Shown: piece after piece, positions 4,690-23,676 of the stretch | Layout of the letters: the number at the start of each line of letters is the position of its first letter | Position numbering within the stretch: the stretch's first letter is position 1 | From: Smithella sp. PtaU1.Bin162 | GTDB lineage: Bacteria; Desulfobacterota; Syntrophia; Syntrophales; Smithellaceae | DNA: 37,063 bases | Direction: 5' to 3' | Assembly: GCA_002068015.1 (NCBI GenBank) | Contig: MVRV01000122.1 | Coordinates: 1-37,063, forward strand | Made by a program: the position numbers and the translations under genes | Notes under the pieces: generated by a model | Databases searched by the model: none | What the model was told of the DNA's origin: nothing | Seen by the model: only the letters and a program-made list of their open reading frames with translations

Positions 4690-4869
4690 TCCCAGATAGC
4701 CGCTGATGCCATTCAAATCCACGTTGGTTACGGTTATTGCTCGGAATATGCTGCCTCCCGCCATTATCTGGATCAGAAACTATGGGATATCGGCGCCGGC
4801 ACTTCCGAAATTCGTCGGATGATTATTGCCCGGGAACTTATGTGCGATAATTTCCAAAGTGCACGTTAA
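4690..4869 (+). pseudogene. acyl-CoA dehydrogenase C-terminal remnant
   Basis: The plus-strand frame after a stop at 4687 reads through about 59 codons ending in TAA at 4867-4869. It matches the extreme C-terminus of a standard acyl-CoA dehydrogenase: AIQIHVGYGYCSEY (usually QI-x-GGxGY-x-x-EY), LWDIGAGTSEIRRMIIAREL, then the end. The catalytic Glu region and everything upstream are missing. It belongs to the usual ~380-residue type, not to the 605-residue type intact at 11188-13005, so it is not a simple fragment of that gene. It is followed by a hairpin (4889-4921), probably its old terminator. Confidence 0.8.
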
Positions 4870-4888
4870 TACAACCATATAATTCTTA

Positions 4889-4921
4889 TTGCAGCCACAC
4901 GGGTAATCGGTGTGGCTGCAA
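4889..4921 (+). terminator. hairpin terminator behind the acyl-CoA dehydrogenase remnant
   Basis: A perfect 12-bp inverted repeat (TTGCAGCCACAC / GTGTGGCTGCAA) with a 9-base loop, followed by TATTTTCTG, starts 20 bases after the remnant's stop codon. GC-rich stem plus a short T-rich tail fits a rho-independent terminator on the plus strand, now orphaned. Confidence 0.65.
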
Positions 4922-5206
4922 TATTTTCTGTCATAGCAAATTTAACTTTAGCCTTAAATTTGATACATTATTAAAGTTTTAAGGAATAGCTGCCGCATGC
5001 TACCTTCAACGCAACCATTGGTAACGAACCCTATGTTTCGAGGTAGAATGTTCTTAATATATAAATAAACATTTTAATACTGCCTCTCGCAAAAAGAAAG
5101 TTCTTGTCAAAAACAATTAGATCAAACAAACGGTTAATAAATGATTATCGAAAAAAGTTGCTTTTACCTTTATAAATTTGATAAAAATAAGTAAAATACC
5201 ATAAAA
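4922..5206. other. AT-rich stretch without recognised genes
   Basis: No plausible coding frame, RNA gene or promoter was recognised in these 285 bases between the old terminator and the truncated transposase. The left end of the IS element is not present here; the break seems to lie at about 5205. Confidence 0.5.
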
Positions 5207-5578
5207 ATGAACATGCGGGCAGTTGCCGCCAAACGACCTGCGGCTGGCCTTATCCACCATTTCGATCGTGTAAGCCAGTATTGCGCCCAAGAATATGGAT
5301 TATTGCTTGGCCGGTTCGGGATGAAGGCATCTATGAGTCGGGAAGGTAATTGCTACGATAACGCCCCCATGGAAAGCTTCTGGGGTGTACTCAAAAACGA
5401 ACAGTCTCATCATTGCCGGTATGCAACAAGGCGGGAGGTTGTACAGGACATTACAGAATACATCGAGATTTTTTATAACCGGCAGAGAAAGCAGTCCAGG
5501 CTCGGGTTTCTTTCTTCGGCTGCTTTTGAACGATGTTTCTATGAAAAACTGCTTGCAGCATGAATACTTTGGTGTCCA
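5207..5578 (+). mobile_element. IS3-family element, right-end remnant (orfB C-terminus plus terminal repeat)
   Basis: The frame 5207-5563 encodes about 118 residues matching the C-terminal half of an IS3-family orfB transposase: GLIHHFDRVSQY (the second catalytic Asp, usually HSDRGSQY), SMSREGNCYDNAPMESFWGVLKNE (with the catalytic Glu), and YNRQRKQSRLGF. The N-terminal half with the first Asp and all of orfA are gone, so it cannot transpose on its own. After the stop comes TTTGGTGTCCA (5568-5578), the inverted terminal repeat; its inner bases match the repeat at 19161-19170. Immediately beyond it lies a truncated beta-keto acid cleavage gene, so the insertion probably cut that gene. Confidence 0.85.
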
Positions 5579-5831
5579 CTATTGACGACCGACCTCATAT
5601 AGAGGTTATCTTCCAAGCCTACCCGTATATTGCCACCGAGAAGCATTGACTGGATACACATTGAAAATTGGTCGCGCCCTGCAACACAAACAGAATACTT
5701 GAAGTCACAAATCTGTCTCCGTGCATAGTCAAACAGAAACATCAGATTTTCAGGGCCAGGTGTAATTCCGCCCAGAACTCCCGTGACAAACTGTAAGTAA
5801 ACAGGCTTCTCAATATAACCCTTAATTTGTC
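5579..5831 (-). pseudogene. beta-keto acid cleavage enzyme (BKACE) remnant
   Basis: The minus-strand frame from about 5831 gives QIKGYIEKPVYLQFVTGVLGG, then FLFDYARRQ, MCIQSMLLGGNIRVGLEDNLYM, where it runs into the IS3 end at 5578. It aligns with the C-terminal third of the intact BKACE at 13022-13939 (for example IKPPVYLQFVTGILGG and LLLRGNVRVGMEDNL) but differs at roughly half of the positions, so it is a separate paralogue rather than a recent copy. The N-terminal zinc-site half is absent and a stop precedes the fragment. Confidence 0.8.
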
Positions 5832-5926
5832 ACCCTGAACTCGTTTCAAGGCGACATAAACCCTTGATTTTTTAGATGTTGGATCAAGCCAGGATTCTGA
5901 ACCAAGTTCAACATGACATTCTATGC
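5830..5926. repeat. REP-like intergenic dyad, imperfect
   Basis: CACCCTGAACTCGTTTCAAGG, then after about 20 bases GATGTTGGATC ... TGAACCAAGTTCAACATGAC. Each half can fold (TGAAC-CAA-GTTCA inside the second, ATGTTG / CAACAT around it). The pattern resembles paired short hairpin repeats scattered between genes in many bacterial genomes. It appears worn, and I see no second copy in the window. Confidence 0.35.
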
Positions 5927-5962
5927 GTTTTTTGACTTAGTACGAAAATAAACCCACAACTT

Positions 5963-6004
5963 ATACTCATGCTTTGTGGTGCCCCACAGGCATGAGTATT
6001 TTTT
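5963..6004 (+). terminator. rho-independent terminator-like hairpin
   Basis: A 10-bp outer stem ATACTCATGC / GCATGAGTAT, an inner TGTGG / CCACA stem and a run of six T on the plus strand. No intact plus-strand gene ends here, and on the other side a minus-strand reading frame stops at 6003, so it may be an old terminator of the decayed region. Confidence 0.6.
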
Positions 6005-6101
6005 ATGACTTCATCAACTTTATCACCTCATTTTCGTAAGGATGAACCAGGACGCCAGCTTCGCCGCAATCTTGTTTTATGCCCTTCCCGAGCTCTCAAC
6101 C
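6003..6101 (-). pseudogene. possible C-terminal remnant of an unidentified gene
   Basis: The minus-strand frame ending at TAA 6003-6005 reads GIKQDCGEAGVLVHPYENE followed by VIKLMKS. This looks like a coding C-terminus and is followed directly by the hairpin at 5963-5999. The frame is closed by a stop about 32 codons upstream. I do not recognise the family. It lies in the decayed block and on the strand of the other minus-strand remnants. Confidence 0.25.
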
Positions 6102-6125
6102 ATTCGAGCAGTCTGTTCAGACACT

Positions 6126-6267
6126 TTATTGTGCAATGTCAGCAATCACAACGTTGGCGCCCTCACGAGCAAAAACGAGCGCAGTAGCGCGAACAATGCC
6201 TGATGCTCCTCCGGTCGGCAATGAACGCGACTTTCCCTCCATGACTTTTAGTTCCGTTAGTAGCCAC
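6126..6267 (-). pseudogene. SDR oxidoreductase N-terminal remnant, frameshifted
   Basis: A GTG at 6267 is preceded by AGGAGGT at ideal spacing. The frame starts MATNGTKSHGGKVAFI; a one-base shift near 6217-6220 then moves to the frame TGGASGIVRATALVFAREG, then ANVVIADIAQ and a stop at 6126. This is the classic start of a short-chain dehydrogenase with its TGGASGI(G) NAD(P)-binding loop. The rest of the enzyme is missing. Upstream are a sigma-54-type site (6323-6337) and GTAAC boxes, so this was once the first gene of an enhancer-dependent operon read away from the regulator gene at 6555-8510. Confidence 0.75.
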
Positions 6268-6322
6268 TTTTACCTCCTACTTTTCCTTTCGGAAATTTTA
6301 AGTTATTTGAATTTGTGAAAGA

Positions 6323-6337
6323 GCATGGAACGTGCCA
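6323..6337 (-). promoter_or_regulatory. sigma-54 (-24/-12) promoter before the SDR remnant
   Basis: The minus strand reads TGGCAC-N5-ATGC, a close match to TGGCAC-N5-TTGC with correct spacing. It lies 56 bases before the GTG of the broken SDR and below the GTAAC boxes at 6374-6419. It may still fire but now drives only damaged genes. Confidence 0.7.
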
Positions 6338-6554: not shown

Positions 6555-8510
6555 CTAAGATTGGCTCTTGTTTTTCATTTTCCGGTACAAGGTCATGCGG
6601 GAAATTTGCAGACAATTGGCAGCAAGACTTACATTGCCATGGCATTCGTTTAATTTTTCAAAAATCGTTTCACGGGTAAGGGTTTTGCCAAGTTTCTCTT
6701 TGATAAACATCGACCGTACTCCAGGGGAGGCCTTTTTAGGTTCCGGAAGTTGAATATCATTAACCGTTATGGTATCCTCTTCACATAATAAAATGGTTCG
6801 CTCAATCGTGCTTCTCAGCTCGCGAATGTTACCCGGCCAAGAATAATCCCTTAGTTTGTTGAGGGCCTCAGAAGTAAAATTGATTTGCCGAGAATGACGA
6901 CGAAGGAAATGTTCTGCCAGCAGTGCAATATCTTCTTTTCGTTCTTTAAGTGGTGGCAGAAAAATATCTATGCCATTTATCCGGTAGAAAAGATCCTGGC
7001 GAAATCGCCCTTCTTCTACTTCCTGGCGTAAATCTTTGTGAGTGGCACAGATCACCCTGATGTTGACGGAAATAGTTTTATGTGAACCAATACGGGTAAT
7101 TGTATCCTCTTCAAGAACCCGGAGCAGATAAGCCTGGACTTCAAGAGGCATATCCCCTATTTCATCCAGAAACAGAGTACCGCCATTGGCTGCTTCGAAC
7201 TTTCCTATTCTTCCCCCCCGTTGAGCACCGGTAAAAGAGCCTTCTTCATAACCGAACAGTTCAGAGGCAGTCAATTCCTTAGGCATTGCCGCACAATTCA
7301 TGGAGACAAAGGGATAGCCGTTGCGACGGCTATTATTGTGGATGGACTGAGCCAGGACTTCCTTTCCTGTTCCCGTTTCACCGGTTATCAAGACAGGGGA
7401 ATCACATTGCGACACTTTCTCCGCTAATTGAATGGTTTTTCGAAGCGCCGGGCTCTGACCCACCATGGAGGAAAAGGTGTAGCGCGTTCCGGAGGGCAGG
7501 CTTTCCTGTTTTACGGTCTTCTTCCCGGCTTGGTCTAACCGAAAAAAGGCACACCCCCCGATATGAGCAGCATCGATGATCCAGGAATGTGTTGTCACAA
7601 TAAAACGTTGGCCTGTCCTACGGCAGACCACGTCAAATGATTGATTAGATTTGTTAAAAAACCCCTGCCCGTTTGTCATACTGAAAACAATTTCAAGGCT
7701 GTCCCCCACCAAATTAGAGGGAAACATATTTCGGGCCAAGGAGTTCATCCTTGTGATTCTGCCTGACTGGTTATAAATTATCCCGGGCTGATCAATTTTT
7801 TGAAATATAAGCTCAAATAGAGAAGGAAATTCCCTTTCCAGCCGCCCTTGAAGATTTTTTTCAATTTCCCTTACCTGGCTGACTACCCAATTTAAATTGT
7901 TGGCTTCAATCATGTGGCTATCACCTGAGATGGTCAGCACCCCTAAAATAGTACCTGACACCCTGTCGCGAATTGGCGCGGAAGAACAAGCATATTGATG
8001 CCACCCGCTGCAGTAATGTTCCCAAGCGAATACTTGCATTGGACTACCACACACAAGAGCCGTTCCAATTCCGTTTGTTCCCGCGGCGGTTTCACTCCAA
8101 TCGGCCCCGGGTAAAAAATGCGTTTTTTCGCTTTTATTAAAAGAGCGGTTGCCGCCGTAACGTCCGTCTAAAATTGCGCCTGTTTCATCGCTCAAGCATA
8201 CTACCATTGTATGGTTTGACGGAAACGTCGCGGATATTTCTTCCATATAAGGAGTAACGGTCTGCATTAAGAACGGACGTCTCGCCCGTTCTTCTCTTAA
8301 TTGGATTTCATGATATTTCAAAGGGGCAGTCTGCATATCGGTCATTACGCCGTATTGCTTTGATCTCTGCCACGATGACAAAATGGGAACACGCGGTGTA
8401 TTAGAAGAATGCGCCCCATTATTTACAAAATCGGCCCGAGCAGATTCCAAATGGTTTAATAGCAAACCAAATTCTTTTACAGAGACGAAAGGTCGGTTAT
8501 TGGACATCAT
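6555..8510 (-). CDS. AcoR-type sigma-54-dependent activator (regulator 1)
   Basis: 651 residues with the layout of AcoR-like enhancer-binding proteins: an N-terminal GAF-like sensory domain (about 75-215, with AGTNGIGTAL and HYCSGWHQYACSSAPI), a short PAS-like segment (about 235-320), a sigma-54 AAA+ domain (about 345-570) and a C-terminal Fis-type helix-turn-helix (LAANCLQISRMTLYRKM). Walker A is GETGTGKE (377-384), Walker [11 protein letters not shown]. The sigma-54 contact loop is GSFTGA (424-429) rather than GAFTGA. It probably senses a small metabolite and opens promoters such as those at 4420 and 6323. It lies downstream of the thiolase on the same strand across a 224-base gap that shows no clear terminator. 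The start has a G-rich GGGGGGTG site five bases upstream. Confidence 0.9.
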   Translation of the reverse strand: MMSNNRPFVSVKEFGLLLNHLESARADFVNNGAHSSNTPRVPILSSWQRSKQYGVMTDMQTAPLKYHEIQLREERARRPFLMQTVTPYMEEISATFPSNHTMVVCLSDETGAILDGRYGGNRSFNKSEKTHFLPGADWSETAAGTNGIGTALVCGSPMQVFAWEHYCSGWHQYACSSAPIRDRVSGTILGVLTISGDSHMIEANNLNWVVSQVREIEKNLQGRLEREFPSLFELIFQKIDQPGIIYNQSGRITRMNSLARNMFPSNLVGDSLEIVFSMTNGQGFFNKSNQSFDVVCRRTGQRFIVTTHSWIIDAAHIGGCAFFRLDQAGKKTVKQESLPSGTRYTFSSMVGQSPALRKTIQLAEKVSQCDSPVLITGETGTGKEVLAQSIHNNSRRNGYPFVSMNCAAMPKELTASELFGYEEGSFTGAQRGGRIGKFEAANGGTLFLDEIGDMPLEVQAYLLRVLEEDTITRIGSHKTISVNIRVICATHKDLRQEVEEGRFRQDLFYRINGIDIFLPPLKERKEDIALLAEHFLRRHSRQINFTSEALNKLRDYSWPGNIRELRSTIERTILLCEEDTITVNDIQLPEPKKASPGVRSMFIKEKLGKTLTRETIFEKLNECHGNVSLAANCLQISRMTLYRKMKNKSQS

Positions 8511-8734: not shown

Positions 8735-9904
8735 TTATTCCCGTGTCAGAAGAAGCGAAGCCCCCTGTCCGCCACCAACGCAAAAGGAGACTAACCCCAG
8801 ATGAGCATCACGACGCTTCATTTCGTATACCAACTTGGTGGCCACTATTACACCTGACGCAGCCAGGGGATGCCCCAAAGCGATTGCTCCTCCGTTAACA
8901 TTCAATATATCCATGTTTAAACTTAGTTCTCTGATACAGGGGATTGACTGAGCTGCAAAAGCCTCGTTCAATTCGATGAGGTCAATATCCTCCATTTTTA
9001 CCCCGGTCTTAGCTAAAAGCTTCCTTGTGGCAAAAATCGGACCGACCCCCATAATGTTGGGGTCTACACCCACTGAAGTAAAGCCCTTAAAGTTAGCTAA
9101 AATCTCCAGCCCCATGGCCTTTGCCTTGCTTTTCTCCATAATTACCATGGCCCCTGCTCCATCATTCATTGGTGAACTGTTCCCCGCCGTTACTATCCCG
9201 TTTTTCTTAAAGGCTGGCGGCAATTTTGCCAAGGTTTCCAAGGTTAAATCCGCACGTAATGATTCATCTTTATTAACCAGTAGTGATTTCCCCTTCCCGT
9301 GAGGTACCTCCACTGGTATAATCTGATCGTTGAAATATCCTGCATCCCATGCCCTGGCTGCCTTCTGGTGGCTCAACAGGGCAAATTCATCCAATTCCTG
9401 ACGCTTCAGATTATATTTAACCGCCACATTTTCCGCAGTCATACCCATAGAAGGATCGCCTATTGCCTGGGGAGACGTCTGAAAGGTTATAAACTTTGGA
9501 TTTGCTACTGCATAAGCCGCTGATGGTTTTTCCATAACATATGATCGTCGGGAATCGCTTTCCACTCCGCCAGCAACGACAATATCAGCATGACCGACCT
9601 GGATCATAATTGCGGCATAGTATATGGAATTCAGGGATGTAGCACACTGACGGTCCAGTGTAATACCTGGCACCTCAATAGGAAGTCCCGCTTCCAGGGC
9701 AACCATACGTGCCATATTAGCAATTTCATTGTTAAACAGGTTTCCATAAATTACATCTTCGATCTCAGTTGGGTCTATCTTGGCACGTTTTACAGCCTCT
9801 TTTACTGTCAGCGCCCCCAAGATATGAGCCGGTACTGGCGCCAGAACTCCCCGGCATCTGCCCACTGGTGTACGTACTGCTGAGACTATTACAGCTTCTC
9901 TCAT
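8735..9904 (-). CDS. acetyl-CoA C-acyltransferase (thiolase)
   Basis: 389 residues, normal for a tetrameric degradative or biosynthetic thiolase. It cleaves 3-ketoacyl-CoA with CoA to acetyl-CoA plus a shortened acyl-CoA, or the reverse. The three catalytic centres are intact: nucleophilic C87 in DRQCATS, H345 in GGAIALGHPLAASG, and the acid/base C375 in CVGGGQG; NEAFA is also present. It follows the 3-hydroxyacyl-CoA dehydrogenase gene by 59 bases on the same strand, so the last two beta-oxidation steps are paired. An AAGG site precedes the ATG. Chain-length preference cannot be read from sequence; acetoacetyl-CoA or 3-ketohexanoyl-CoA are reasonable candidates given the neighbours. Confidence 0.92.
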   Translation of the reverse strand: MREAVIVSAVRTPVGRCRGVLAPVPAHILGALTVKEAVKRAKIDPTEIEDVIYGNLFNNEIANMARMVALEAGLPIEVPGITLDRQCATSLNSIYYAAIMIQVGHADIVVAGGVESDSRRSYVMEKPSAAYAVANPKFITFQTSPQAIGDPSMGMTAENVAVKYNLKRQELDEFALLSHQKAARAWDAGYFNDQIIPVEVPHGKGKSLLVNKDESLRADLTLETLAKLPPAFKKNGIVTAGNSSPMNDGAGAMVIMEKSKAKAMGLEILANFKGFTSVGVDPNIMGVGPIFATRKLLAKTGVKMEDIDLIELNEAFAAQSIPCIRELSLNMDILNVNGGAIALGHPLAASGVIVATKLVYEMKRRDAHLGLVSFCVGGGQGASLLLTRE

Positions 9905-9963
9905 CGGTTTAACCTTCTTTCTCTTATTTATTTTTATAATCCCTAGATATGGAGATATTTTTA

Positions 9964-10830
9964 TTACTTGTAATTATAAAATCCTTTTCGAGTTTTCTGG
10001 CCATATTCTCCGGCCTTGAATTTTTGCTCTAATAATGGTACCGGTGTATCCTCTGGTTTACCCGTTTCTTCAAAGCGCCCCTGTTTTATATAGTAATAGA
10101 GATCTAAGCCTGTCAGATCCATAAGCTTGAATGGGCCCATAGGATGGTTCAGGGCGCCTACCACAGCGGCGTCGATGTCTTCAACTGAGGCTATTCCATG
10201 CTCAGCCAAATAAAGAGCCTCATCGTTGATTGCCATAAGAATCCGATTGACCACAAAACCATAAATCTCCTTAGTAATAAGCACTGGAGTTTTGTCTAGT
10301 CTCCTGCACAGATCCATAGTAACCTGCACCGTCTCCTCCGAAGTGTGTGGGCCTTTTACCACTTCAACAACTTTCATTACCAAGGCCGGATTGAAGTAAT
10401 GCATATTTAAAACCTTTTCTGGTCGTGAAGTCGCATCTACCACCTTAGAACTGGCAATGAATGAACTGTTTGTAGCGAGAATTGCATGGGAAGGGGCATT
10501 CTTGTCCATCACAGCAAACAAATTTCTCTTCAGTTCTAGTTTCTCTGTCGCTGCTTCGATGACAAAGCCGGCGTCCTTGACCGCTTCCGCCAGGTTGGTG
10601 ATGAACGATATGTTCTTTCGGGCTGCTTCTGCTACAGCCTGGGACATCTTTCCTTTGACTACTCTTTCGGGAAGGTATTTGTCCGTAAAGGCCTGCGCTT
10701 TTGCCAGTGCTTCTTGGGAAACATCAACGCAAACCGTTTTATAGCCTTGGATAGCTGCGTTCAGGGAAATCTGGTGTCCCATATTTCCAGCTCCGACAAC
10801 GCATATTTTTTTAATATCTTCAACCTTCAT
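9964..10830 (-). CDS. 3-hydroxyacyl-CoA dehydrogenase
   Basis: About 288 residues, the size of single-domain 3-hydroxybutyryl-CoA dehydrogenases. It oxidises 3-hydroxyacyl-CoA with NAD(P)+ or runs in reverse. An N-terminal Rossmann fold starts CVVGAGNMGHQ (GxGxxG), the catalytic His lies in MHYFNPALVMKVVE, and the C-terminal domain has GFVVNRIL and KGFYNYK at the end. I start at the ATG at 10830 because GGAGG lies eight bases upstream; the in-frame ATG at 10845 has no ribosome site. Fifty-nine bases ahead of the thiolase and 357 bases after the acyl-CoA dehydrogenase. Close to the Hbd/PaaH group; exact substrate unknown. Confidence 0.92.
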   Translation of the reverse strand: MKVEDIKKICVVGAGNMGHQISLNAAIQGYKTVCVDVSQEALAKAQAFTDKYLPERVVKGKMSQAVAEAARKNISFITNLAEAVKDAGFVIEAATEKLELKRNLFAVMDKNAPSHAILATNSSFIASSKVVDATSRPEKVLNMHYFNPALVMKVVEVVKGPHTSEETVQVTMDLCRRLDKTPVLITKEIYGFVVNRILMAINDEALYLAEHGIASVEDIDAAVVGALNHPMGPFKLMDLTGLDLYYYIKQGRFEETGKPEDTPVPLLEQKFKAGEYGQKTRKGFYNYK

Positions 10831-11187
10831 AATACTTGCCTCCATATTAATTATCTATTTTCTTAATGTAATCATAATGGACTATATAAGCTTCAGATTT
10901 CACTTTATTTATATATTTCTTATTTTATACTCAAAAACATCTGGGTAGGAATCTATAACCGATGTGTCTCCCACCTTACTCAACTCTAGTACTGCCCGGA
11001 CATTGAGAACAATATTTTGCAAGTAGTACCGGGCAGATAGCAGCTTTCCGTTATAGAAGTTATAATAGTAATGTCCACTACCTAATTCCTCTATCTTTTC
11101 CTTTATAACTGTCTAAGACATCCCGATCCCGCTTTGTTGTCTCCACCAACGAGCTTTTCTATTTTTTTGATGGTGGATCAAGGTTGT
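10831..11187. other. 357-base gap with a GC-rich dyad
   Basis: No gene recognised. It contains the inverted repeat CTGCCCGG (10992-10999) / CCGGGCAG (11029-11036) around a 29-base loop, the strongest structure in the gap. No T-run follows on the minus strand. It may separate expression of the acyl-CoA dehydrogenase from the downstream hydroxyacyl-CoA dehydrogenase and thiolase. I found no sigma-54-like site here. Confidence 0.45.
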
Positions 11188-13005
11188 CTATACGGCGAAT
11201 CCGTCTTCGGATATCCGCATCGCACTTGTGTCGTCCTTCGTCAAGACTTCACATTTTGCCGGAACGAGGGCTGTTGTGCGCTTGATAAAGAACACGGCGC
11301 TTTCTATCTTTCCCGAATAGAAGGCCTTTTCCTGATCCGTTGTCGCCTGGGGCAGTTTCTTCGATGCAACGGTTGCCATCACCATGTGACACCACCCCAG
11401 AAGGGTATCACCTACGCAGTTGAGGAAATCGCTTGCGGCAATGAGCGGAACATAGGGATTTATCTTCATGAGGCCGGCAAAATCCATAGACGTTTTCACG
11501 ATGGTATCAAGGGCGGTCTCCACGATTTCCGTTTCATCCTTAAAGAGGCCCATTTCCTTTGCCGGAACAAGACTGGCTTTTGCTTCCGAGATGAGATTCA
11601 TGAAGCAAAGGCCCTTTTTCATGCCAAGTTTCCGCCCCAGCAGGTCGAGGGCCTGGATACCGTTAGTGCCTTCAAAGATCATGTTGATTTTCTGATCGCG
11701 CATCATCTGTTCCACAGGGTATTCACGGCAGAAACCATAGCCACCGTAAGTCTGAACGGATAGGTCATTGACCACCATTCCCATCTCGGTACAGTACGCT
11801 TTTACAATCGGTGTCAGGACCTCAATCATGCCCTGCCACTTTTCGGTTTCTTCTCCCGTAGTTGCTGCTTTCTCCCTGTCCATGGCATAATAACAGTACA
11901 GACAAAGGAAGCGGATCCCTTCAACAAGGGATTTCTGTTTGATGAGCATCCTTCTTACATCGGGATGCTGGATAATCGGAACACGAACCGTGGTATCCTT
12001 TGATAGAATATTGGAACCCTGAACACGTTCTTTTGCATAAGCCAAGGCGTGAAGGTAGCCTGCCGTAGCCAGTGAGACACCCATCATGCCGGTAGTCTGC
12101 CGTTCCTCGTTCATCATGTGGAACATGACCTTCATGCCTTCCCGCTCTTGTCCCATGAGATAACCGATACATTTGCCATTCTCACCGAAGTTCAGCGTGC
12201 AGGTTGCGTTTCCGTGAATACCCATCTTGCTTTCGATATTTCCTGTGGCGACATCGTTTCCATCACCCAGTGAACCATCGGTGTTCACGCGGATCTTGGG
12301 AACGACGAATATGGAGATGCCCTTGGTACCAGGATCATCTCCCTCGATCCTAGCCAGGACGGTGTGAATAATATTCTCTGTCAAATCGTGGTCGCCTGCG
12401 GAGATGAAGCACTTCGTTCCTGTAATCGAGAAGGTTCCATCGGGGTTTCTTTTGGCCGAGGTTTTCAGGGCACCGACATCGGAACCTGCGCCGGGTTCCG
12501 TCAGACACATCGTGCCTCCCCATGTGCCGTCGAACATCTTGGCGAGATATATATTCTTCAATTCTTCGGAGCAGAATTTCTCTACCAGTTTCGCCGCGCC
12601 GTGGGTTAGCAAGGGATACATGACAAACGCCTGGTTGCAGGCCTGAAACATATTTATACAGGCGGCTCCGACTATCTCAGGCAGTCCCTGTCCGCCGACA
12701 TCGGGGCTATCCGCCGCGCTGAACCAGCCACCCTCGGCATAAAGTTTCCACAACCGATGGTAGGCTTCCGGGGCATAAACTTTGCCGTCCTTGAAGACCG
12801 CTTCCACCGGTTTCCTGTGGACTTCGTCTGGATATGTCGGGGCAATCTCATTTTCTGCAAATTTGACCGCTGCATCAAGAACCATATTGACCATGTCGGT
12901 ATCATGATTCTCAAAGGGCGCTTTCCCTAAAAGTGTTTCACCGATATTCAACACCTCATGAAGTATGAATCTGGCATCTCTTTCATCAACCCACTGGCTT
13001 GCCAT
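11188..13005 (-). CDS. acyl-CoA dehydrogenase, long type with extra C-terminal domain
   Basis: 605 residues, well beyond the ~380 of standard acyl-CoA dehydrogenases; the extra C-terminal ~120 residues match the domain found in DmdC (3-methylmercaptopropionyl-CoA dehydrogenase)-like proteins. It introduces a 2,3-double bond into an acyl-CoA using FAD and passes electrons to ETF. Visible: CLTEPGAGSDVGALKTSA (FAD/substrate middle domain), YGGYGFCREYPVEQMMRD and the catalytic Glu in MIFEGTNGIQALDLLGRKLG. It starts 16 bases after the BKACE stop, so the two are certainly co-transcribed. No ETF genes are in the window. Many proteins of this type are misnamed for one substrate; here the acyl chain is unknown. 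Confidence 0.9.
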   Translation of the reverse strand: MASQWVDERDARFILHEVLNIGETLLGKAPFENHDTDMVNMVLDAAVKFAENEIAPTYPDEVHRKPVEAVFKDGKVYAPEAYHRLWKLYAEGGWFSAADSPDVGGQGLPEIVGAACINMFQACNQAFVMYPLLTHGAAKLVEKFCSEELKNIYLAKMFDGTWGGTMCLTEPGAGSDVGALKTSAKRNPDGTFSITGTKCFISAGDHDLTENIIHTVLARIEGDDPGTKGISIFVVPKIRVNTDGSLGDGNDVATGNIESKMGIHGNATCTLNFGENGKCIGYLMGQEREGMKVMFHMMNEERQTTGMMGVSLATAGYLHALAYAKERVQGSNILSKDTTVRVPIIQHPDVRRMLIKQKSLVEGIRFLCLYCYYAMDREKAATTGEETEKWQGMIEVLTPIVKAYCTEMGMVVNDLSVQTYGGYGFCREYPVEQMMRDQKINMIFEGTNGIQALDLLGRKLGMKKGLCFMNLISEAKASLVPAKEMGLFKDETEIVETALDTIVKTSMDFAGLMKINPYVPLIAASDFLNCVGDTLLGWCHMVMATVASKKLPQATTDQEKAFYSGKIESAVFFIKRTTALVPAKCEVLTKDDTSAMRISEDGFAV

Positions 13006-13021
13006 AAATATTTTCCTCTCG

Positions 13022-13939
13022 CTATAGTTTCTTCAGTCCTAAAATCTCCCTCGCCTCTTCCGTCGTGGCTGGCTCGAAATCTAATTCCCGCATGATCCTC
13101 ACCATTTTCTCCACCAATTCTCCATTGTTCTTTGTCTTTTGCTTACGGTTGAGCATCAGGTTGTCCTCCATGCCTACCCGCACATTACCTCTCAATAATA
13201 ACGCCTGAGTACAGATGGGAAACTCGGCACGCCCAGCACCGAACGCTGACCACACGTAGTTCCCCGGACCGATAAGCCGGTCGGCGGTTGTTAGCAGATT
13301 AATTAGATCGTAAGGGGTTGAACCGATACCTCCCAAGATGCCGGTTACAAACTGCAAATAAACTGGAGGTTTAATGAAGCCTGCCTGTATCAGATAGGCC
13401 AAATTAGAGAGGTGCCCTGTATCGTAAGCCTCAAACTCCGGCTTGGTCCCATTTTCTGCCATAATGGGAAGCATCGCTTTCAGATCGGCAAAACTATTTT
13501 GGAAGATGGCACCTTCCAGCATCTTCAGCATCGCGCTTTCCCAAGGATATTTGAACTCTTTATATTTCTCGCCAATGACAAATACTCCCCAATTTATGGA
13601 TCCCAGATTGCAGGAAGCCAGCTCCGGCTTGAACCGTGGAACCACCGATAACCGCTGCTCTACCGTCATTCCCGCGCCACCGCCCGTGGTAAGACAAATA
13701 ATGAGTTCCTTATTCTTTTCACGAATGAGATCAATAATCTCCTGAAAGATATTAAGATCCGGCGAGGGCATGCCGTTCTCCGGATTGCGGGCATGGATAT
13801 GAACCACCGCCGCTCCCGCAGCAGCCGCATCCAGCGCATTCTGGGCGATCTGTAGGGGTGTGATGGGAAGGTACTCCGACATAGTGGGAATATTAATAGA
13901 TCCGGTTATCGCACATGTAACAATACGTTTATTGCTCAT
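13022..13939 (-). CDS. beta-keto acid cleavage enzyme (BKACE, DUF849)
   Basis: 305 residues, the normal length. The family, typified by Kce of lysine fermentation, uses Zn2+ to convert a beta-keto acid plus acetyl-CoA into acetoacetate plus the corresponding acyl-CoA. The zinc ligands H47 and H49 are visible in VVHIHARNP, and the C-terminal RVGMEDN segment carries the conserved Glu. The start has an AGGAGGTG site. It lies between the SDR and the long acyl-CoA dehydrogenase, so it may launch a beta-keto acid into beta-oxidation without spending ATP. The substrate pocket residues differ between family subgroups and I cannot assign the acid. A decayed paralogue lies at 5579-5831. Confidence 0.9.
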   Translation of the reverse strand: MSNKRIVTCAITGSINIPTMSEYLPITPLQIAQNALDAAAAGAAVVHIHARNPENGMPSPDLNIFQEIIDLIREKNKELIICLTTGGGAGMTVEQRLSVVPRFKPELASCNLGSINWGVFVIGEKYKEFKYPWESAMLKMLEGAIFQNSFADLKAMLPIMAENGTKPEFEAYDTGHLSNLAYLIQAGFIKPPVYLQFVTGILGGIGSTPYDLINLLTTADRLIGPGNYVWSAFGAGRAEFPICTQALLLRGNVRVGMEDNLMLNRKQKTKNNGELVEKMVRIMRELDFEPATTEEAREILGLKKL

Positions 13940-14049
13940 AAATCTTCACCTCCTAATTTTATGTTATTTTATTTTTACTCCCGTCAAAACCACAAACGGG
14001 CTGTCCCAACCGGAACAGCAGTGAGTTGCCGACGACCATAACAAGAAAG

Positions 14050-14069
14050 CAGGGAGTGATACGTCCCTG
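14050..14069. other. small dyad between SDR and BKACE genes
   Basis: CAGGGA (14050-14055) and TCCCTG (14064-14069) with an 8-base spacer lie in the 195-base gap between the SDR end and the BKACE start. No T-run follows. Possible RNA hairpin; low weight. Confidence 0.25.
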
Positions 14070-14134
14070 AAAAGGGGTATTAGACGCATACTCCACATCT
14101 TGGAAATATTGGTTTGGAAATGAAATCTGCTTTC

Positions 14135-14911
14135 TCAGTTGAGAGTCAAACCACCGTCTACACTGAATACCGCACCTGTAACATACCTTGAAGCGTCAGA
14201 AGCCAGATATACCACTATGCCGGCAATCTCGCCTACTGTGCCGAGTCGGCGCATTGAGATAGTTTTAACAAAGCGCTCCAATATCTGTGGATCGCTTAAT
14301 TCCTTTTCATTTAGCGACGTCATTACATATCCCGGGCATACGCAATTGACTCGCAGGTTATAACGCGCCCACTCCAATGCCAATACTTTGGAAAGCTGAA
14401 TGGCCCCCGCTTTACTGATATAATAGGGAGCAACATTAACTTCCTGCTTCAACCCCGCCGCCGATGAGATATTGATGATGCTGCCGCTCCTGCGCTCAAT
14501 CATATGTTTCCCAACCATCTGGCAGAGGAAAAATATCCCTTTGAGATTCAGATTTAAGGTGGCATCCCATTCCTCTTCGGTTACTTCAACAGCCTTCTTG
14601 GTTATTCCGATTCCAGCATTGTTTACCAGTATATCGATTTGTCCCATCTCCTTAACGGCATAAGAGACCAGCTTCTCGATCCCTTTCACTGTCGAAACGT
14701 CGGCTGCAACGGACAGTGCTTTTCGTCCCATCATTTCGATTTCTTTTGCAACCTTTTCGCAATCAGCGGGTGTACGGCTGACTACGATAATGTCAGCCCC
14801 CGCTTGCGCTAGACCCATAGCCATGCCGTACCCCAATCCTTTGGTCGCCCCGGTAACCATTGCTACCCGTCCGGTTAAGTCCATGCTGGGTATCTTGTCT
14901 GACTCTTTCAA
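14135..14911 (-). CDS. SDR family oxidoreductase
   Basis: About 258 residues, the classical SDR size. NAD(P)-dependent alcohol/ketone interconversion, probably of a hydroxy- or ketoacyl intermediate. Visible: TGATKGLGYG (TGxxxGxG), the NNAG motif, the catalytic Ser in NISSAAG and Tyr/Lys in YYISK, and the C-terminal SVDGG. I choose TTG at 14911 as start: AGGAGAG sits six bases before it and the protein then begins MKESDKIPSMDLTGRVAM. Alternatives are an ATG at 14884 (poor site) and an ATG or TTG further upstream that would add an atypical N-tail. It lies between the AbfD-like dehydratase and BKACE. With intact active site it may supply the beta-keto acid that BKACE cleaves; this is inference. 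Confidence 0.88.
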   Translation of the reverse strand: MKESDKIPSMDLTGRVAMVTGATKGLGYGMAMGLAQAGADIIVVSRTPADCEKVAKEIEMMGRKALSVAADVSTVKGIEKLVSYAVKEMGQIDILVNNAGIGITKKAVEVTEEEWDATLNLNLKGIFFLCQMVGKHMIERRSGSIINISSAAGLKQEVNVAPYYISKAGAIQLSKVLALEWARYNLRVNCVCPGYVMTSLNEKELSDPQILERFVKTISMRRLGTVGEIAGIVVYLASDASRYVTGAVFSVDGGLTLN

Positions 14912-14999
14912 GATGATCTCTCCTGCTACATATCGGTGTTGATGTTTATGCTCAAACATACCCTTATCAAGGCAATAGAACAAATTACTCTTTGTTTTT

Positions 15000-15040
15000 C
15001 CAGAGCAAGGGGGCAGGGCTAACTTGTCTCCCTGCTCTGG
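15000..15040 (-). other. GC-rich hairpin after the AbfD-like gene
   Basis: CCAGAGCA-AGGG pairs with CCCTGCTCTGG with one bulged base and a loop of about 18 bases, starting 11 bases beyond the dehydratase stop. Reading along the minus strand no T-run follows, so partial termination or 3'-end protection of the upstream message is more likely than full termination. Confidence 0.4.
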
Positions 15041-15050
15041 AATTAGACAT

Positions 15051-16478
15051 TTAGTCTTTAATACCCGCCAGATGTTTCACCAGATCTTTTTTCGCTTTCA
15101 GATCATAGTTGCTGCGGATGCCGATCATTTCCATTATGGGAGAACCTCCGCCATGAACACCCGCATACTGCCAGACGCCCGACCAGGCAGAGCAGGAAAA
15201 ATCGGAGATAAAGCGAAATAAACGGTGTTGATCTTCCGCGCTTATTCCCGGTTTGCGCATGCTGTATTTATCAAGGAATCCTTTGATATCCTTGTTGTAG
15301 AAATCTTCTTCGTACGGCATTGTTGCCGGCCATCCACCTGCCGTTGCCGAGAGGATATCATATTCATGAAAGATGTTTACTCCGGCATGATAACGTCCGG
15401 CATTGCTGTACATGAAATTCGGTTCAAAGGTGCCGGAAGATGATTTTTTGCCCGTAACCGCCGCAGCGATTCCGGCGGCATAGACCAGTTCCGCGGTAAC
15501 CATGAGCTTGGCCAGATCGTCTTTGATATGGGGTGCATTGCCCACTCCGTTGTACTCCGCCACCATAGCCGTTGCTCCGATGAAGACATCCGTCATGGCG
15601 GGCTTACAGCCGCAGTAACTGAACCGGTGATAGTTGGCGAAAAGGAGCGCCAGGCGGCCCGCATACTGCCACTCCCCGCACATAAAAACACGCTCCCAGG
15701 GAACGAAAACATTGTCGAAGACGGTGAGGGAGTCCATTACACCCCGTTCGTTGAAGGGAGCTTTGATATGGGTACGCGCTCTGGGCTGGCTTGCCCGTGC
15801 AATCAGGGAAATACCTTCGGCATCCGAGGGAATGGCAAAAGAAACAGCCCAGTCCGCGTCATCTTTGGTCATGGCGCGCGTCGGCACCACGATTATTTCG
15901 TCGGCGTAGGGAGCAATGGTATTGTGGGCCTTGGAGCCGCAAACAACGATTCCGTCTTTTCTTTTCTCGACAACTCTCAAATAGAGATCAGGATCAACCT
16001 GCTCATGAGGCCGTTTGGAACGATCACCTTTGATGTCGGTCTGCCCGGCATTGCCGCAGAGGTTATTTTTCTGGTAATATTTAAGATAATTGAAAAAACG
16101 CTGATGATATTCCGTACCCAGATCGTCATCCATTTCTTTGGTTGCAATGGATATGCCGCTGATAGTGTCATTGGCCATGCATCTCTGGAAGCAGCCGCCG
16201 CAGAGACCGCATAAATCACGAGTCAATTTCTGTCGTTTCAACAGGTCTTCTGTGTTTTGCGGAACATGTGTGTAAAGACTTATGTTTTTCCCTGTTAGAG
16301 ATGACTTGACGATGGCCTTATCCTTAAATTGGGGATCAGTTTCGGCATCATAGCTGACTCGAATCATATTCATGCCAGCTTCCACTCTGGGATCATTCCT
16401 TCCTATCTTTTCTCCACCCACATAAATATTGGGCTTCATCTTGAGCAGCCGCTCTTTGTATGCTTCATACGAACTCAT
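15051..16478 (-). CDS. 4-hydroxybutyryl-CoA dehydratase (AbfD)-like FAD/[4Fe-4S] enzyme
   Basis: 475 residues, against about 490 for AbfD of Clostridium aminobutyricum. The superfamily also contains flavin 4-hydroxyphenylacetate 3-monooxygenases, but the cluster ligands of the dehydratases appear conserved: C96 and C100 in GCFQRC (AbfD C99/C103), H284 and C291 in YHRFSYCGC (AbfD H292/C299, same 7-residue spacing). Other shared segments are DPDLYLRVVEKRKDGIVV, VSFAIPSDAEG and FDNVFVPWERVF. AbfD dehydrates 4-hydroxybutyryl-CoA to crotonyl-CoA by ketyl-radical chemistry and also isomerises vinylacetyl-CoA. An extra C90-x2-C93 precedes the cluster cysteines. It is the first gene of the catabolic cluster, behind the sigma-54 site at 16591-16605 and divergent from regulator 2. 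The substrate may be a 4-hydroxyacyl-CoA other than hydroxybutyryl. Confidence 0.85.
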   Translation of the reverse strand: MSSYEAYKERLLKMKPNIYVGGEKIGRNDPRVEAGMNMIRVSYDAETDPQFKDKAIVKSSLTGKNISLYTHVPQNTEDLLKRQKLTRDLCGLCGGCFQRCMANDTISGISIATKEMDDDLGTEYHQRFFNYLKYYQKNNLCGNAGQTDIKGDRSKRPHEQVDPDLYLRVVEKRKDGIVVCGSKAHNTIAPYADEIIVVPTRAMTKDDADWAVSFAIPSDAEGISLIARASQPRARTHIKAPFNERGVMDSLTVFDNVFVPWERVFMCGEWQYAGRLALLFANYHRFSYCGCKPAMTDVFIGATAMVAEYNGVGNAPHIKDDLAKLMVTAELVYAAGIAAAVTGKKSSSGTFEPNFMYSNAGRYHAGVNIFHEYDILSATAGGWPATMPYEEDFYNKDIKGFLDKYSMRKPGISAEDQHRLFRFISDFSCSAWSGVWQYAGVHGGGSPIMEMIGIRSNYDLKAKKDLVKHLAGIKD

Positions 16479-16590
16479 TAGTCTTTTTTCTCCTTAATGT
16501 TTTGAGATCAATCCAATGGTAATTACGATAAATTTAATTACCTTCGATTCTTGAATTTACTTTAGCGATATCTATAAGTCATTCTTATTA

Positions 16591-16605
16591 GCATTGATCA
16601 TGCCA
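16591..16605 (-). promoter_or_regulatory. sigma-54 (-24/-12) promoter for the dehydratase cluster
   Basis: The minus strand reads TGGCAT-N5-ATGC, with GG and GC at the right spacing and two departures from TGGCAC-N5-TTGC. It lies 113 bases upstream of the AbfD-like start and about 110 bases below the dyad at 16713-16732, the geometry expected for an enhancer-dependent promoter. Confidence 0.6.
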
Positions 16606-16905: not shown

Positions 16906-18864
16906 ATGCAGCGTGCTGACGAAAAATTTGATAAGATATTAGGCCAGTGGAGGCGATACTTCAAAAAAAGGTCCACAAGCATAGATACGACGATTATTCC
17001 CAGTGCGATTCTTGACTCATGGAATCGATCTAAAGAGAAAAACATCAATCCGTACATTAAAAAAAATTCGGTACTTCTTGAAGGTCGCCAGTTAAGAGAA
17101 CTCCTGGAGGTGAATTCAGAACTGATTAATATCAGTATCCCATTTATGAAGAATCTTCATAGCTGCGTCGCGGGCTCCGGATACATTCTGGCCCTGTTTG
17201 ATTATCAGGGATATCTTTTAGAACTGTTGGGAGATGAGGACATAGTCAATTACGTTAAACCGAGTAACTTCGTAATAGGTTCCTGCTGGAGTGAAGATAT
17301 AATGGGAACGAACGGAGCAGGTACTGCAATCGTGGAGGTGAAACCGGTGCAGATATTTGGTCCTCAGCATTACTGCATTTGTTCACGTCACTGGTCAGGT
17401 TCCGGTGCGCCAATACACAATCCGGAGGGTAAATTAATCGGTGCAATCGCCTTGACCGGACCTTATGAGGTCACGCATGCCCATGGATTGGGAATGGTCG
17501 CGGCTGTAACCTATGCAATAGAAAACAGCATGCGTGTCAGAAAAGCCCTGACTGAAGTAAATATTGCAAAAAGCTACCAGGAGACCGTCATTTCCTCGAT
17601 TCCCGAAGCTATTGTAGCTATAGACAACGATGCTAATGTTACTTTGATCAATCACCATGCAACTGAAATATTCGGTTTACCATCCGGTCAAGTAGCTGGG
17701 CGGCAAATCAGCGATATCTGCAACAAGGACAATCAGAACTTCATCAGTATGATCATGGAAAATGAGTCTTTGATCGATGCGGAAGTGACGATTCTGAAAA
17801 ACCGCAATTCATATAAGTATACTTTAACGTGTAATTCCATCACAACGTCAAATCAGAAAACGATAGGCAAAATCATCATTCTCAATGAAATCAACCGAGC
17901 GAAGACTTTAGTCAACAATATGACCGGAGCAAAAGCAAAAATTAAATTTGATGATCTCATTGGGGATGAAATAAAGTTTCTGGAAACAATCGAAATGGCA
18001 AAATTGATTTCGTCTAGTGTGTCCAATGTTCTTCTCTTAGGGGAAAGCGGTACCGGAAAGGATGTTTTTGCTCAGGCCATTCATAATGAAAGTAATCGGA
18101 GTAATGGTCCTTATATTGCTATCAATTGCGCAGCTATACCACGTGATTTAATTTCAAGTGAGCTTTTTGGCTATTCTGATGGTGCATTTACGGGATCAAG
18201 AAAAGGTGGTTCGCAGGGTAAATTCGAACTGGCTGATGGTGGTACACTCTTTCTGGATGAAATTGGAGAAATGCCTTTGGAATTGCAGGCAATTCTTTTG
18301 AGGGTCATCGAAGATAAATCTATTACGAAAATCGGGGGTGACAGAACAACATCCGTGAATGTAAGGATTATAGCAGCAACGAACAAGGATTTGAAAGAAG
18401 AAATAAGGAACAAGAAATTCAGGGAAGATCTATACTATCGCTTTAGCGTTTTTACGCTCAAAATGATTCCATTGCGGGAAAGGAAAGAAGATATTCCCAT
18501 CCTTGCTCAGTACTTTGTTCAAAAAATCAGTAATGCAATCAACAAAATAAATGTCAAGATCAATGATGACGTCCTTGCAGGATTGAAGGAGTATTCCTGG
18601 CCCGGAAATATAAGAGAACTCCAAAATGTTATTGAGAGAATGATTTATATTGCAAAGGACAGCACCCTTACGGTTGATTTAATGCCGCAAGAGATTATAA
18701 TAAATAATTATGTACAAAAATCAAACAATGAGTTGTCTGAATCAAATAACGGTACTCATAAGTTGATTTTATCAATGATGCAGTCCCATATACCTAAGAC
18801 GAAAATTGCCGAAAAATTGTGTATATCACGGAGCACTTTATATCGTTTGCTTAGAGAGTATTAA
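16906..18864 (+). CDS. AcoR-type sigma-54-dependent activator (regulator 2)
   Basis: 652 residues, same architecture as regulator 1: N-terminal GAF-like region (about 70-215, with [11 protein letters not shown] and [16 protein letters not shown]), a PAS domain (about 222-330), a sigma-54 AAA+ domain (about 348-575) and a C-terminal helix-turn-helix ([17 protein letters not shown]). Walker A is GESGTGKD (379-386), Walker [11 protein letters not shown]. The sigma-54 contact loop reads GAFTGS (426-431), where GAFTGA is usual. Divergent from the AbfD-like gene across a 427-base region holding a -24/-12 site and two dyads, so it probably controls that cluster. GAGAGGGTAG lies before the ATG. Inducer unknown. 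It is the only intact plus-strand gene of the catabolic half. Confidence 0.9.
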
Positions 18865-19313: not shown

Positions 19314-19847
19314 TTATAAAAGAGGATATACTATTACAATGATATCTTTTGCTTTTATAAACCCAAAATATCTGGAGTCGTACGAATCTATATGATCACC
19401 CACCAAAAACATATCGCCTTCCGGAATTTTCCCGGAGTATTCAAACTTCTTCAATCTTTCCCCACCTAATGAATAATCTTTGGCCATTGCTATCAATTCG
19501 TTTTTACAATAATACTTATTACCAATATTTTTTATTTCTTCCCCAGCACTGCACCCTATTCTTTTTATCTGCAATTCCTCACCATCATCTTCAATCATTC
19601 TTACTAATTTTGCAGGTAGGTCATTTTCCCGTTTACTTCTTAAAAGAGAAAACATTACATAATCACCGGTTTTTAATTTTTTTAATTGTTTCCCTTTGTT
19701 GATAAAAAAGATCCTTTTATTAAGAGATGCTGTAGTCGTTACCGCAAAATAATTCGGGATTGCAGCGCCGGCAATAAGAATTAAAATAACAAGTATAAAT
19801 ATCTTAAACTTTGTCCACTTTGTTTTTTTATTATTGGATGTCAACAA
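19314..19847 (-). CDS. S26 signal peptidase, conjugative TraF type
   Basis: 177 residues. One N-terminal membrane segment (about 14-32) is followed by a periplasmic S26 catalytic domain: Ser41 in TTASLNKRIFF and the general base Lys95 in LQIKRIG, then the GDHIDSYDSRYFGFI box (GDN-x-xSxDSR in signal peptidase I). Such peptidases mature pilin or other exported components of conjugation systems. The start is a TTG at 19847 with AGAGGAGCGGAG before it; it overlaps the end of trbI by 17 bases, implying translational coupling. It is the last gene of the tra operon in the window. A housekeeping LepB is unlikely given the small size and location. Confidence 0.82.
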   Translation of the reverse strand: MLTSNNKKTKWTKFKIFILVILILIAGAAIPNYFAVTTTASLNKRIFFINKGKQLKKLKTGDYVMFSLLRSKRENDLPAKLVRMIEDDGEELQIKRIGCSAGEEIKNIGNKYYCKNELIAMAKDYSLGGERLKKFEYSGKIPEGDMFLVGDHIDSYDSRYFGFIKAKDIIVIVYPLL

Positions 19848-20217
19848 TCTCCGCTCCTCTCAATATTACATCGCTCATTAATACCACTTTCCTTTTTCCC
19901 AGATCATTTACCACCGCTTCGAGCTTATCCATATTGGCTTTAAATTGTTCTTCCGATATTTTACCGTTGACCATACCAACTTTTTGCTTTTCCAAAAACC
20001 CCTTAATATCAACACCAATAATATTTTGGTTTTGTTGAGGCTTTAAAATGAAGCTATGATAAACATATAAAGAAGCCAGTGTGATAATCATATTTAAAAT
20101 AATAATTAAAATATATCTCGGCTTTTTTTCTTTCAACCTAGGGGGAGTGTAACCTCTTTCCATTATGCCGGTGGATGACTTACTATCGGTTTGTTCTTCT
20201 TTCTGTTCTTTCGTCAT
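19831..20217 (-). CDS. trbI: F-type conjugation protein TrbI
   Basis: 128 residues with a cytoplasmic basic N-terminus, a single membrane segment (about 36-55) and a periplasmic tail containing VDIKGFLEKQKV ... SEEQFKANMDKLEAVV ... VVLMSDVILRGAEIVDI, the pattern of F-type TrbI proteins, which influence pilus extension and retraction. In the F plasmid trbI lies between traC and traW; here it has moved to the far end, next to the signal peptidase. GAGGCG precedes the ATG. The match rests on topology and the tail motif, so moderate-to-high confidence. Confidence 0.78.
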   Translation of the reverse strand: MTKEQKEEQTDSKSSTGIMERGYTPPRLKEKKPRYILIIILNMIITLASLYVYHSFILKPQQNQNIIGVDIKGFLEKQKVGMVNGKISEEQFKANMDKLEAVVNDLGKRKVVLMSDVILRGAEIVDIQ

Positions 20218-20241
20218 TTTTGCTCGCCTCTTTGATTTATT

Positions 20242-20271
20242 TTGTTTTCTATTTTATTTATATGATATAAT
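20242..20271 (+). promoter_or_regulatory. sigma-70-like promoter for the small plus-strand gene
   Basis: TTGTTT (20242-20247), 18-base spacer, perfect TATAAT (20266-20271). The predicted start of transcription lies about 15-20 bases before the ATG at 20295. AT-rich surroundings make chance matches common, but the position is right. Confidence 0.5.
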
Positions 20272-20294
20272 CAGTCACAGAAAGAAGTGATCTT

Positions 20295-20516
20295 ATGATT
20301 TTTATAATGCTTGTTGCCGTAATTGGACTCTTTGCTCTGGCCAGAGCCTTTTTTAAATGGCTTAACAAAGACGTTAAGACAACAATTAATAATTTGCCGG
20401 ATGGCTGGCCTGAAGGCTATCCCCCGAATGATCCCTATGCAACGGATCATTCGACTTCGGCCTGGGGTGGAAACTGCGTTGATGTTTATCATCTTGCACA
20501 TCGTTTTGACGAATAA
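20295..20516 (+). CDS. small membrane-anchored protein, unknown
   Basis: 73 residues. An N-terminal hydrophobic segment (about 2-18) is followed by a basic stretch and a polar tail with NNLPDGWPEGYPPNDPYA. It lies on the plus strand between trbI and traG, all of which are on the minus strand, and has a plausible promoter directly upstream and a weak ribosome site. No family recognised. The overlapping minus-strand frame (20271-20525) looks like a shadow. A role as an entry-exclusion or immunity-like cargo of the element is possible but only suggested by place and topology. It could also be spurious. Confidence 0.5.
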   Translation: MIFIMLVAVIGLFALARAFFKWLNKDVKTTINNLPDGWPEGYPPNDPYATDHSTSAWGGNCVDVYHLAHRFDE

Positions 20517-20574
20517 AATATCCATTATGTTTCATTTATCCTAAAGGGTGTGGATTACATCTATCACGCTCTTT

Positions 20575-23500: not shown

Positions 23501-23670
23501 AAAGTCTTATATCCATTGTCCGCAAAGATAAGGGTCAATATTCTCCATGCCTCGACCTCGATATCAAAGCCGTTCCATGTATAATAATCCATATCCAGCG
23601 CATAACTTACAGAAGCCTTTGATATGATGCCGGCGACGATTATCATTTTTATAAAACTTTTGGTTTTCAT
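20575..23670 (-). CDS. traG: conjugation protein TraG (mating-pair stabilisation)
   Basis: 1031 residues. Signal-like N-terminus, then the TraG_N membrane domain: hydrophobic segments near residues 50-75, 90-108 and 365-415 and another near 455-480, followed by a long polar C-terminal half rich in Gln, Ser and Asn (about 490-1031) that ends in a charged tail. F TraG spans the inner membrane for pilus assembly, and its C-terminal periplasmic part stabilises mating pairs and acts in entry exclusion. The C-terminal half shows a GGWMGLAPYGHFAGG glycine stretch, as F TraG-like proteins often do. It follows traH by six bases, the traF-traH-traG order being typical of F-like systems. The length is slightly above F TraG (938). 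Confidence 0.85.
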   Translation of the reverse strand: MKTKSFIKMIIVAGIISKASVSYALDMDYYTWNGFDIEVEAWRILTLIFADNGYKTLFFAVITMGIFLGGFGTIFGLMSGTKQGSSLSWAWPLGLGVVLYLALIVPKGNLTIYDPVANKFQTIPQVPNGLVAVAGILNKIEKGLSDIITTSGGYPPGAQYDNAAGGIGISTILAFTGLNTMDAYLNQSVDEYVKECVIFEMEQPTPAITMSDLDTTNDLLTVMGAAANPAVWVTYWDSSNPGGTTLTCSTAWANLSNILNQTSTYNQWEKKACSSAGFNTNDPIEMQRCESILGSTIEYLYDNPSFGATSFILNMALAQRLDQVIKKLNPELTQGLLANKQASLGGEGATIVASQYIPIAKAIFKAIIVGMIPFLILFLPTTLSVRTLGIVIGFFIFVTCWGICDVIIHNLVMVRTFNELQNIRDHGMSYTAATLWPTAGQRALNLYGNMRAGSVMFAAVISAVICKFGNYALTSIAGGVSGMITSTGQHIGGMVREPQTAAAYTDSLRGSIAPQLNARNNDFELDAFARGAKYTGTAAGDITATQAFGGAAKTIEQYRTGTAGNTVDKVSAGSGKFDAGMDNVIDISRGRAAGGFKGQIDRQQSSEYKDQSLRDGAEVIQRHQSASESVIGDTGRSSSMRGENKEGWRVIENQSGVRYEQNERTPWAQVKNFNPQMTLSNRAELSKSAAKSLQNDIRWNNLYTNSEQFAMDNRTSKETVFSAQKDISREFSKRVSEDNSLSETVRQDVRKEINSSMQVGYRAGGWMGLAPYGHFAGGMTIGKTKSDGEQGGHILSGAEADVLNKIYRESESHALRNSLSNADSHSWAKQLNESVGSARTKSIQEMVSRSISLTENQSQNITGEMVDYVKQKYDVSGDQAMEMLNKGYDGRDADTSFVASNVLMGKNIVEGADDKINNIQSEVEDNVIKDQDNMASLKNDVNRYTSNADLKRINSNDKPHSGEINEDEMNKMIEQRKAEIKAREEKMSPAPQVIQDAFDATKNKLKSWVQKGADEPSINPLEDGHEDKEKK

Positions 23671-23676
23671 TTCATA

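Follow-up and report, generated by a model that had tools for sequence, protein, structure and literature searches.

A putative sigma-54-controlled catabolic cluster joining an AbfD-like protein of a separate clade with a beta-keto acid cleavage enzyme in Smithella sp. PtaU1.Bin162

The stretch of contig MVRV01000122.1 of Smithella sp. PtaU1.Bin162 analysed here (37,063 nt in all, hereafter the window) raises the question of why a protein resembling the radical enzyme 4-hydroxybutyryl-CoA dehydratase (AbfD) is encoded in one cluster with a beta-keto acid cleavage enzyme (BKACE). The ORF list and translations confirmed six minus-strand open reading frames (ORFs) at 8735-16478, and Pfam and PDB assignments, coordinates and strand bear out the gene set named in an earlier note on this DNA. 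Judged from strand and order, a transcript from the upstream promoter-like site would begin with the dehydratase-like gene (15051-16478; 475 aa; HpaB_N/HpaB, best PDB match AbfD 1u8v with 349 bits), followed by a short-chain dehydrogenase/reductase (SDR; 14135-14983; FabG-, KduD- or 2-deoxygluconate-3-dehydrogenase-like, adh_short_C2), BKACE (13022-13939; Pfam BKACE, 333 bits), a long FadE5-like acyl-CoA dehydrogenase (ACAD; 11188-13005; 605 aa; Acyl-CoA_dh and Acyl-CoA_dh_C, best PDB match 6ijc), a 3-hydroxyacyl-CoA dehydrogenase of the 3-hydroxybutyryl-CoA dehydrogenase type (HBD; 9964-10845; Pfam 3HCDH) and a thiolase (8735-9904; Pfam Thiolase N/C) of a rare clade found near BKACE in Clostridia. 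Catalytic motifs are intact in all six translations as inspected by eye, including the Ser-Tyr-Lys motif of the SDR (Ser-YxxxK), HIHAR and MEDN in BKACE, FEGTNG in the ACAD, HYFNP in HBD, and CVGGG and the cysteine of RQCATS in the thiolase; the TTG at 14983 may not be the true start of the SDR, because homology begins only at about residue 34. We tentatively propose, at slightly less than an even chance, that these genes form a sigma-54-controlled catabolic cluster for a hydroxylated or keto carboxylic acid.

The pairing of the dehydratase-like protein with BKACE, which the earlier note had suggested could be functional, is probably not accidental. An SDR accompanies the dehydratase repeatedly, lying within 8 kb at 18 of 34 loci of the clade. 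In the termite-gut Clostridiales Family XIII bacterium Pcl387_bin75 (Bacillota; locus L015), an SDR, a dehydratase of the same clade, an HBD, a BKACE and a thiolase of the same clade lie within about 10 kb, in a cluster comprising SDR (49% identity), dehydratase (48%), HBD, crotonase, Ptb, thioesterase, Buk, SDR, BKACE and thiolase (62%) and adjoining a sugar-type ABC transporter. Among 297 genomes of this bacterium's order, the dehydratase clade occurs in this one only (other matches reach at most 46%) and the thiolase clade in four (59-62% identity, then a gap down to 52%). The thiolase adjoins BKACE or sits one to three genes away from it in all four, and in two it also adjoins an AtoAD-type CoA-transferase, as would be expected if it processes BKACE-derived acetoacetate. 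Within the window's own order the thiolase clade is confined to the window genome (155 genomes). A rough estimate, made after the Bacillota case had been seen and treating genomes as independent, gives a chance of (4/297) x (20 kb / 2.2 Mb) = 1e-4 for a thiolase of this clade within 10 kb of a dehydratase-clade locus; about 0.004 such co-locations would thus be expected across the 34 loci, whereas one was observed in addition to the window. This recurrence in an unrelated bacterium suggests an undescribed anaerobic breakdown pathway. It is the combination that recurs: the exact six-gene set was not found a second time among the genome contigs of close dehydratase homologues or the neighbourhoods from order relatives, and a conserved six-gene operon is therefore rejected.

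Two probable regulators border the cluster, both recognised by domain matches: a sigma-54-dependent activator of PrdR/DhaR/AcoR-like architecture (6555-8510, minus strand) and a divergent sigma-54-dependent activator with GAF/PAS sensor domains (16906-18864, plus strand). A sigma-54 (-24/-12)-like promoter, TGGCATGATCAATGCT, matches at 16590-16605 on the minus strand, 112 bp upstream of the dehydratase gene. The underlying pattern, TGGCAYNNNNNRTGCT, has three matches in the window where shuffles predict 0.07 (never three in 100 shuffles), and each site lies upstream of a minus-strand gene or gene remnant, the other two being upstream of a decayed SDR/BKACE piece and 126 bp upstream of a carboxylase block. 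In other stretches of the genome a related pattern was found eight times against 1.6 expected; six of these sites lie in intergenic DNA ahead of genes, among them two further dehydratase operons (L096 and L101). The enrichment in the window is suggestive, not proven, because TGGCAYNNNNNRTGCT was narrowed, after hits had been seen, from a looser search that gave 12 sites against 9.3 expected. Scans for sigma-70 promoters and terminators did no better than shuffles.

We infer the order of steps, their direction and the substrate of the proposed route as follows. A free 3-hydroxy acid would be oxidised by the SDR, and BKACE could exchange the resulting beta-keto acid with acetyl-CoA to yield an acyl-CoA, without ATP, and acetoacetate. 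On the CoA thioester, the dehydratase-like protein might then remove or shift an unactivated hydroxyl group or double bond, and the ACAD, HBD and BKACE-associated thiolase, together with a crotonase and a CoA-transferase encoded elsewhere, would convert the products to acetyl-CoA. As the earlier note had observed, the ORFs of the window include no recognisable crotonase, CoA ligase or CoA-transferase, but crotonase-like, CoA-transferase-like and CoA-ligase-like genes are present in other stretches of the same genome, whose ORFs were read by eye (genome-wide counts are based on family searches and individual stretches). On contig C128 (L099), for example, a true-AbfD paralogue lies together with a thiolase, a CoA-transferase-like gene, an HBD and a crotonase. 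Because the genome encodes these enzymes elsewhere, their local lack carries little weight, and there is no need for BKACE and the AbfD-like protein to replace the steps, as had been suggested.

The dehydratase-like protein has the fold and cofactor site of AbfD. Pfam and a predicted structure agree on the HpaB-type fold (AF2 pLDDT 92; Foldseek TM 0.95 to 1u8v), and an alignment of 93 relatives shows that the [4Fe-4S] ligand positions C99, C103, H292 and C299 are all kept, as are Y296, K300 and T190. A maximum-likelihood tree nevertheless places it in a separate 38-row clade (SH-aLRT 100), apart from AbfD, which with its archaeal counterpart groups with five other paralogues from the window's own genome. 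In the same alignment the position of E455 is occupied by Ala and that of E257 by Asp; across the clade these positions hold Ala or Gly and mostly Asp, respectively, and fixed differences from AbfD include Q466 to Glu and G424 to Arg. E455 and E257 are reported to be essential in AbfD of Clostridium aminobutyricum, whose E455Q and E257Q variants reportedly lack measurable activity and whose E455 is said to have been proposed as the base that deprotonates Tyr296. If these reports hold, the replacement of E455 implies that the clade must rely on a different base or catalyse a different reaction. We reject true AbfD identity on the separate clade and the change of E455 to Ala, and the formation of an enoyl-CoA from a 4-hydroxyacyl-CoA, which the earlier note had carried over from AbfD, is unproven for a protein outside the AbfD clade and lacking the E455 equivalent. 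It is possible, though we consider it rather unlikely, that the clade represents a functionally new flavin/[4Fe-4S] radical branch in which the radical is made without the E455 base, acting in an undescribed anaerobic pathway where BKACE supplies the acyl-CoA free of ATP.

The 3.6-Mb window genome holds nine HpaB/AbfD-like genes in all. At another locus of the clade (L110, genome G022), read by eye, the dehydratase adjoins a phosphotriesterase-like (lactonase-like) protein, an HBD, a CoA ligase and SDRs; these neighbours hint that some members of the clade may act on gamma-lactones or 4-hydroxy acids. A further HpaB-fold clade (L030:9998-11536 and orthologues in the order) has no Fe-S ligands and is 84-100% identical across many genomes of the family, which is odd for strict anaerobes; a long ACAD lies nearby in L021, L027 and L029.

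The identity of the BKACE itself is clear from its PF05853 score above cut-off, its zinc-binding HxH motif and its conserved ED motif. It falls below the cut-offs of all characterised equivalogs tested (NF053538, NF052387 and NF053568), the best being 3,5-dioxohexanoate:acetyl-CoA acetone transferase NF053538 with 371 bits against a cut-off of 430, and it carries Ile15 at the position of Glu14 in the lysine-pathway enzyme Kce. The genome encodes 11 intact BKACE genes and one fragment, several of them adjoining TRAP transporters. Two are candidates for phloroglucinol-type degradation, namely a BKACE next to a cyclase-type protein (L086:8721-10439) and a BKACE that carries the Trp characteristic of triacetate lyase (L085:2078-2902).

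Beyond the first regulator lies a decayed neighbour cluster (4693-6337) with fragments of an ACAD (4693-4842, plus strand), an IS3-type integrase (5207-5563, plus), a BKACE (5590-5823, minus) and an SDR (6141-6215, minus), the last with its own sigma-54-like site upstream (6322-6337, minus). On the other side, F-type conjugation genes (TraG, TraH, TraF, TrbC, TraU, TraN, TraC, TraV, TrbI and a peptidase S26) occupy the greater part of the window's right half (19314-37024) and suggest a conjugative element. Given these flanks, the cluster can be placed in an accessory region. Past the decayed genes, a biotin carboxylase (879-2258), a separate biotin carrier (2380-2691) and a divergent OadA/PycB-like carboxyltransferase (2794-4293) form a block conserved as such in the genus, where the carboxyltransferase is only 63% identical while the carboxylase is about 90%. 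Its sigma-54-like site made this block a candidate part of the pathway, which we rejected for an independent unit.

Several observations weigh against a single dedicated pathway, beyond the narrowing of the sigma-54 pattern. Intergenic gaps of 195 bp between SDR and BKACE and of 342 bp between ACAD and HBD may mark separate transcription units. Within the window neither a transporter nor an activating enzyme indicates the substrate. Among the 34 dehydratase-clade loci, an HBD lies within 8 kb in eight and BKACE in only two, one of which is the window itself, and gene order is not conserved. The BKACE at L015 belongs to another subgroup, only about 38% identical, and the two clusters may therefore differ in substrate. 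The closest orthologues of the window BKACE (96% in G002, of the same genus, and 86% in G032) lie in a different operon, alongside thiolase-fold proteins, OB-fold proteins, an ACAD and a CoA ligase, joined in G002 by ETF and ETF-QO. Those at 74-75% identity, in five genomes, are fusions of BKACE to an N-terminal ketopantoate-reductase-like (ApbA) domain (L145, L146, L147, L148 and L149), most near a CitMHS/GntP-type permease (L145, L146 and L147) and an HBD-like gene (L145, L147 and L149).

The main rival explanation is a mosaic, in which two modules with different substrates, one of SDR and dehydratase and one of BKACE and beta-oxidation genes, became chance neighbours in an accessory island. 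The decayed genes, IS3 remnants and conjugation system on its flanks, the residence of the 96% BKACE orthologue in another operon and the two gaps between modules would all fit, and because the genome holds 11 intact BKACE genes, their chance proximity to other genes is not rare. The recurrence of dehydratase clade, BKACE and rare thiolase clade in one cluster of an unrelated phylum argues the other way, as do the intact reading frames of the cluster beside a decayed copy, and we regard the mosaic as doubtful, if far from negligible. Degradation of a triacetate-like acid (3,5-dioxo or derived from a cyclic diketone) to acetyl-CoA or butyrate is unlikely. Under this scheme the SDR would form a beta-diketo acid, BKACE would release acetoacetyl-CoA and acetoacetate, and the thiolase, HBD and ACAD would oxidise or ferment the product; NF053538 as best equivalog, albeit below its cut-off, is in its favour, and so is a Clostridia cluster similar to the published phloroglucinol one, in which the thiolase clade is accompanied by a cyclase-type hydrolase and a Trp-type BKACE. 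It would, however, leave the dehydratase without a role, the window has no cyclohydrolase, its BKACE carries Ile15 instead of the Trp of the characterised lyase, and other loci of the genome fit phloroglucinol better (C181 with cyclase and BKACE, C165 with a Trp-type BKACE).

A classical 4-hydroxybutyrate or GABA-type route with a true 4-hydroxybutyryl-CoA dehydratase would account for the AbfD-like fold, Fe-S ligands, Tyr296 and Lys300 and for the presence of HBD, ACAD and thiolase. We consider it very unlikely, given the separate clade (SH-aLRT 100%) and the loss of E455, the true-AbfD paralogues elsewhere in the genome, such as the one on C128 described above, and the BKACE and SDR it would leave unexplained. 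Least probable, and in our view scarcely credible, is the role on which the earlier note had speculated, Smithella-type propionate dismutation through a six-carbon beta-keto acid. The family of the window genome does include G032, which encodes a protein 100% identical to one of a metagenome-assembled genome labelled Smithella sp. (L030), a single-protein match that points to Smithellaceae as the probable family of the host. Of 51 family genomes, however, only 8 encode a BKACE of 50% identity or more and only 3 one of 74% or more, the thiolase clade is limited to the window genome among the 155 of the order, and no mutase-type rearrangement gene lies in the window. The genes of a core energy pathway would be expected to be conserved and far more widespread than 3/51, and this distribution therefore largely refutes the idea.

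If the proposed catabolic route is real, anaerobes of at least two phyla would share an undescribed pathway with ATP-free acyl-CoA formation by BKACE and a second AbfD-type branch. The clade lacking E455 would then make the radical-generation mechanism proposed for AbfD directly testable by comparison, and genes annotated as "AbfD" in syntrophs, Chloroflexota, Spirochaetota and archaea may encode proteins of a different clade.

Compared with known systems, the dehydratase-like protein shares with AbfD (1u8v; archaeal 6vjr) the overall fold and the cofactor-site residues detailed above, but differs in clade, in the positions of E455 and E257, in the clade-specific residues E450, R408 and R362 (window numbering) and in its SDR neighbours. 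The combination of SDR, BKACE and thiolase is established logic in deoxyribonate catabolism of Pseudomonas simiae (PMC6365646), where an SDR oxidises a free 3-hydroxy acid and BKACE forms acyl-CoA and acetoacetate ahead of a thiolase. SDR and BKACE are adjacent in the window, which, however, has no MFS transporter, contains the radical-dehydratase-like protein, ACAD and HBD in addition, and yielded neither a lactonase nor a glycerate kinase, genes for which the rest of the genome was not searched. In phloroglucinol catabolism of Clostridium scatologenes (PMC10470551), BKACE occurs with an HBD-like dehydrogenase, and a related thiolase clade is found in a similar Clostridia cluster; neither a phloroglucinol reductase, a dihydrophloroglucinol cyclohydrolase nor a Trp-type BKACE was recognised in the window, whose Ile15 contrasts with Trp16 of the C. 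scatologenes enzyme. A literature search linking inositol with BKACE-type genes gave no lead. Another close counterpart is the termite-gut cluster at L015, which lacks a long ACAD and has extra genes for crotonase, Ptb, Buk, thioesterase and a sugar-type ABC transporter, but shares with the window the SDR, HBD and BKACE and the same dehydratase and thiolase clades.

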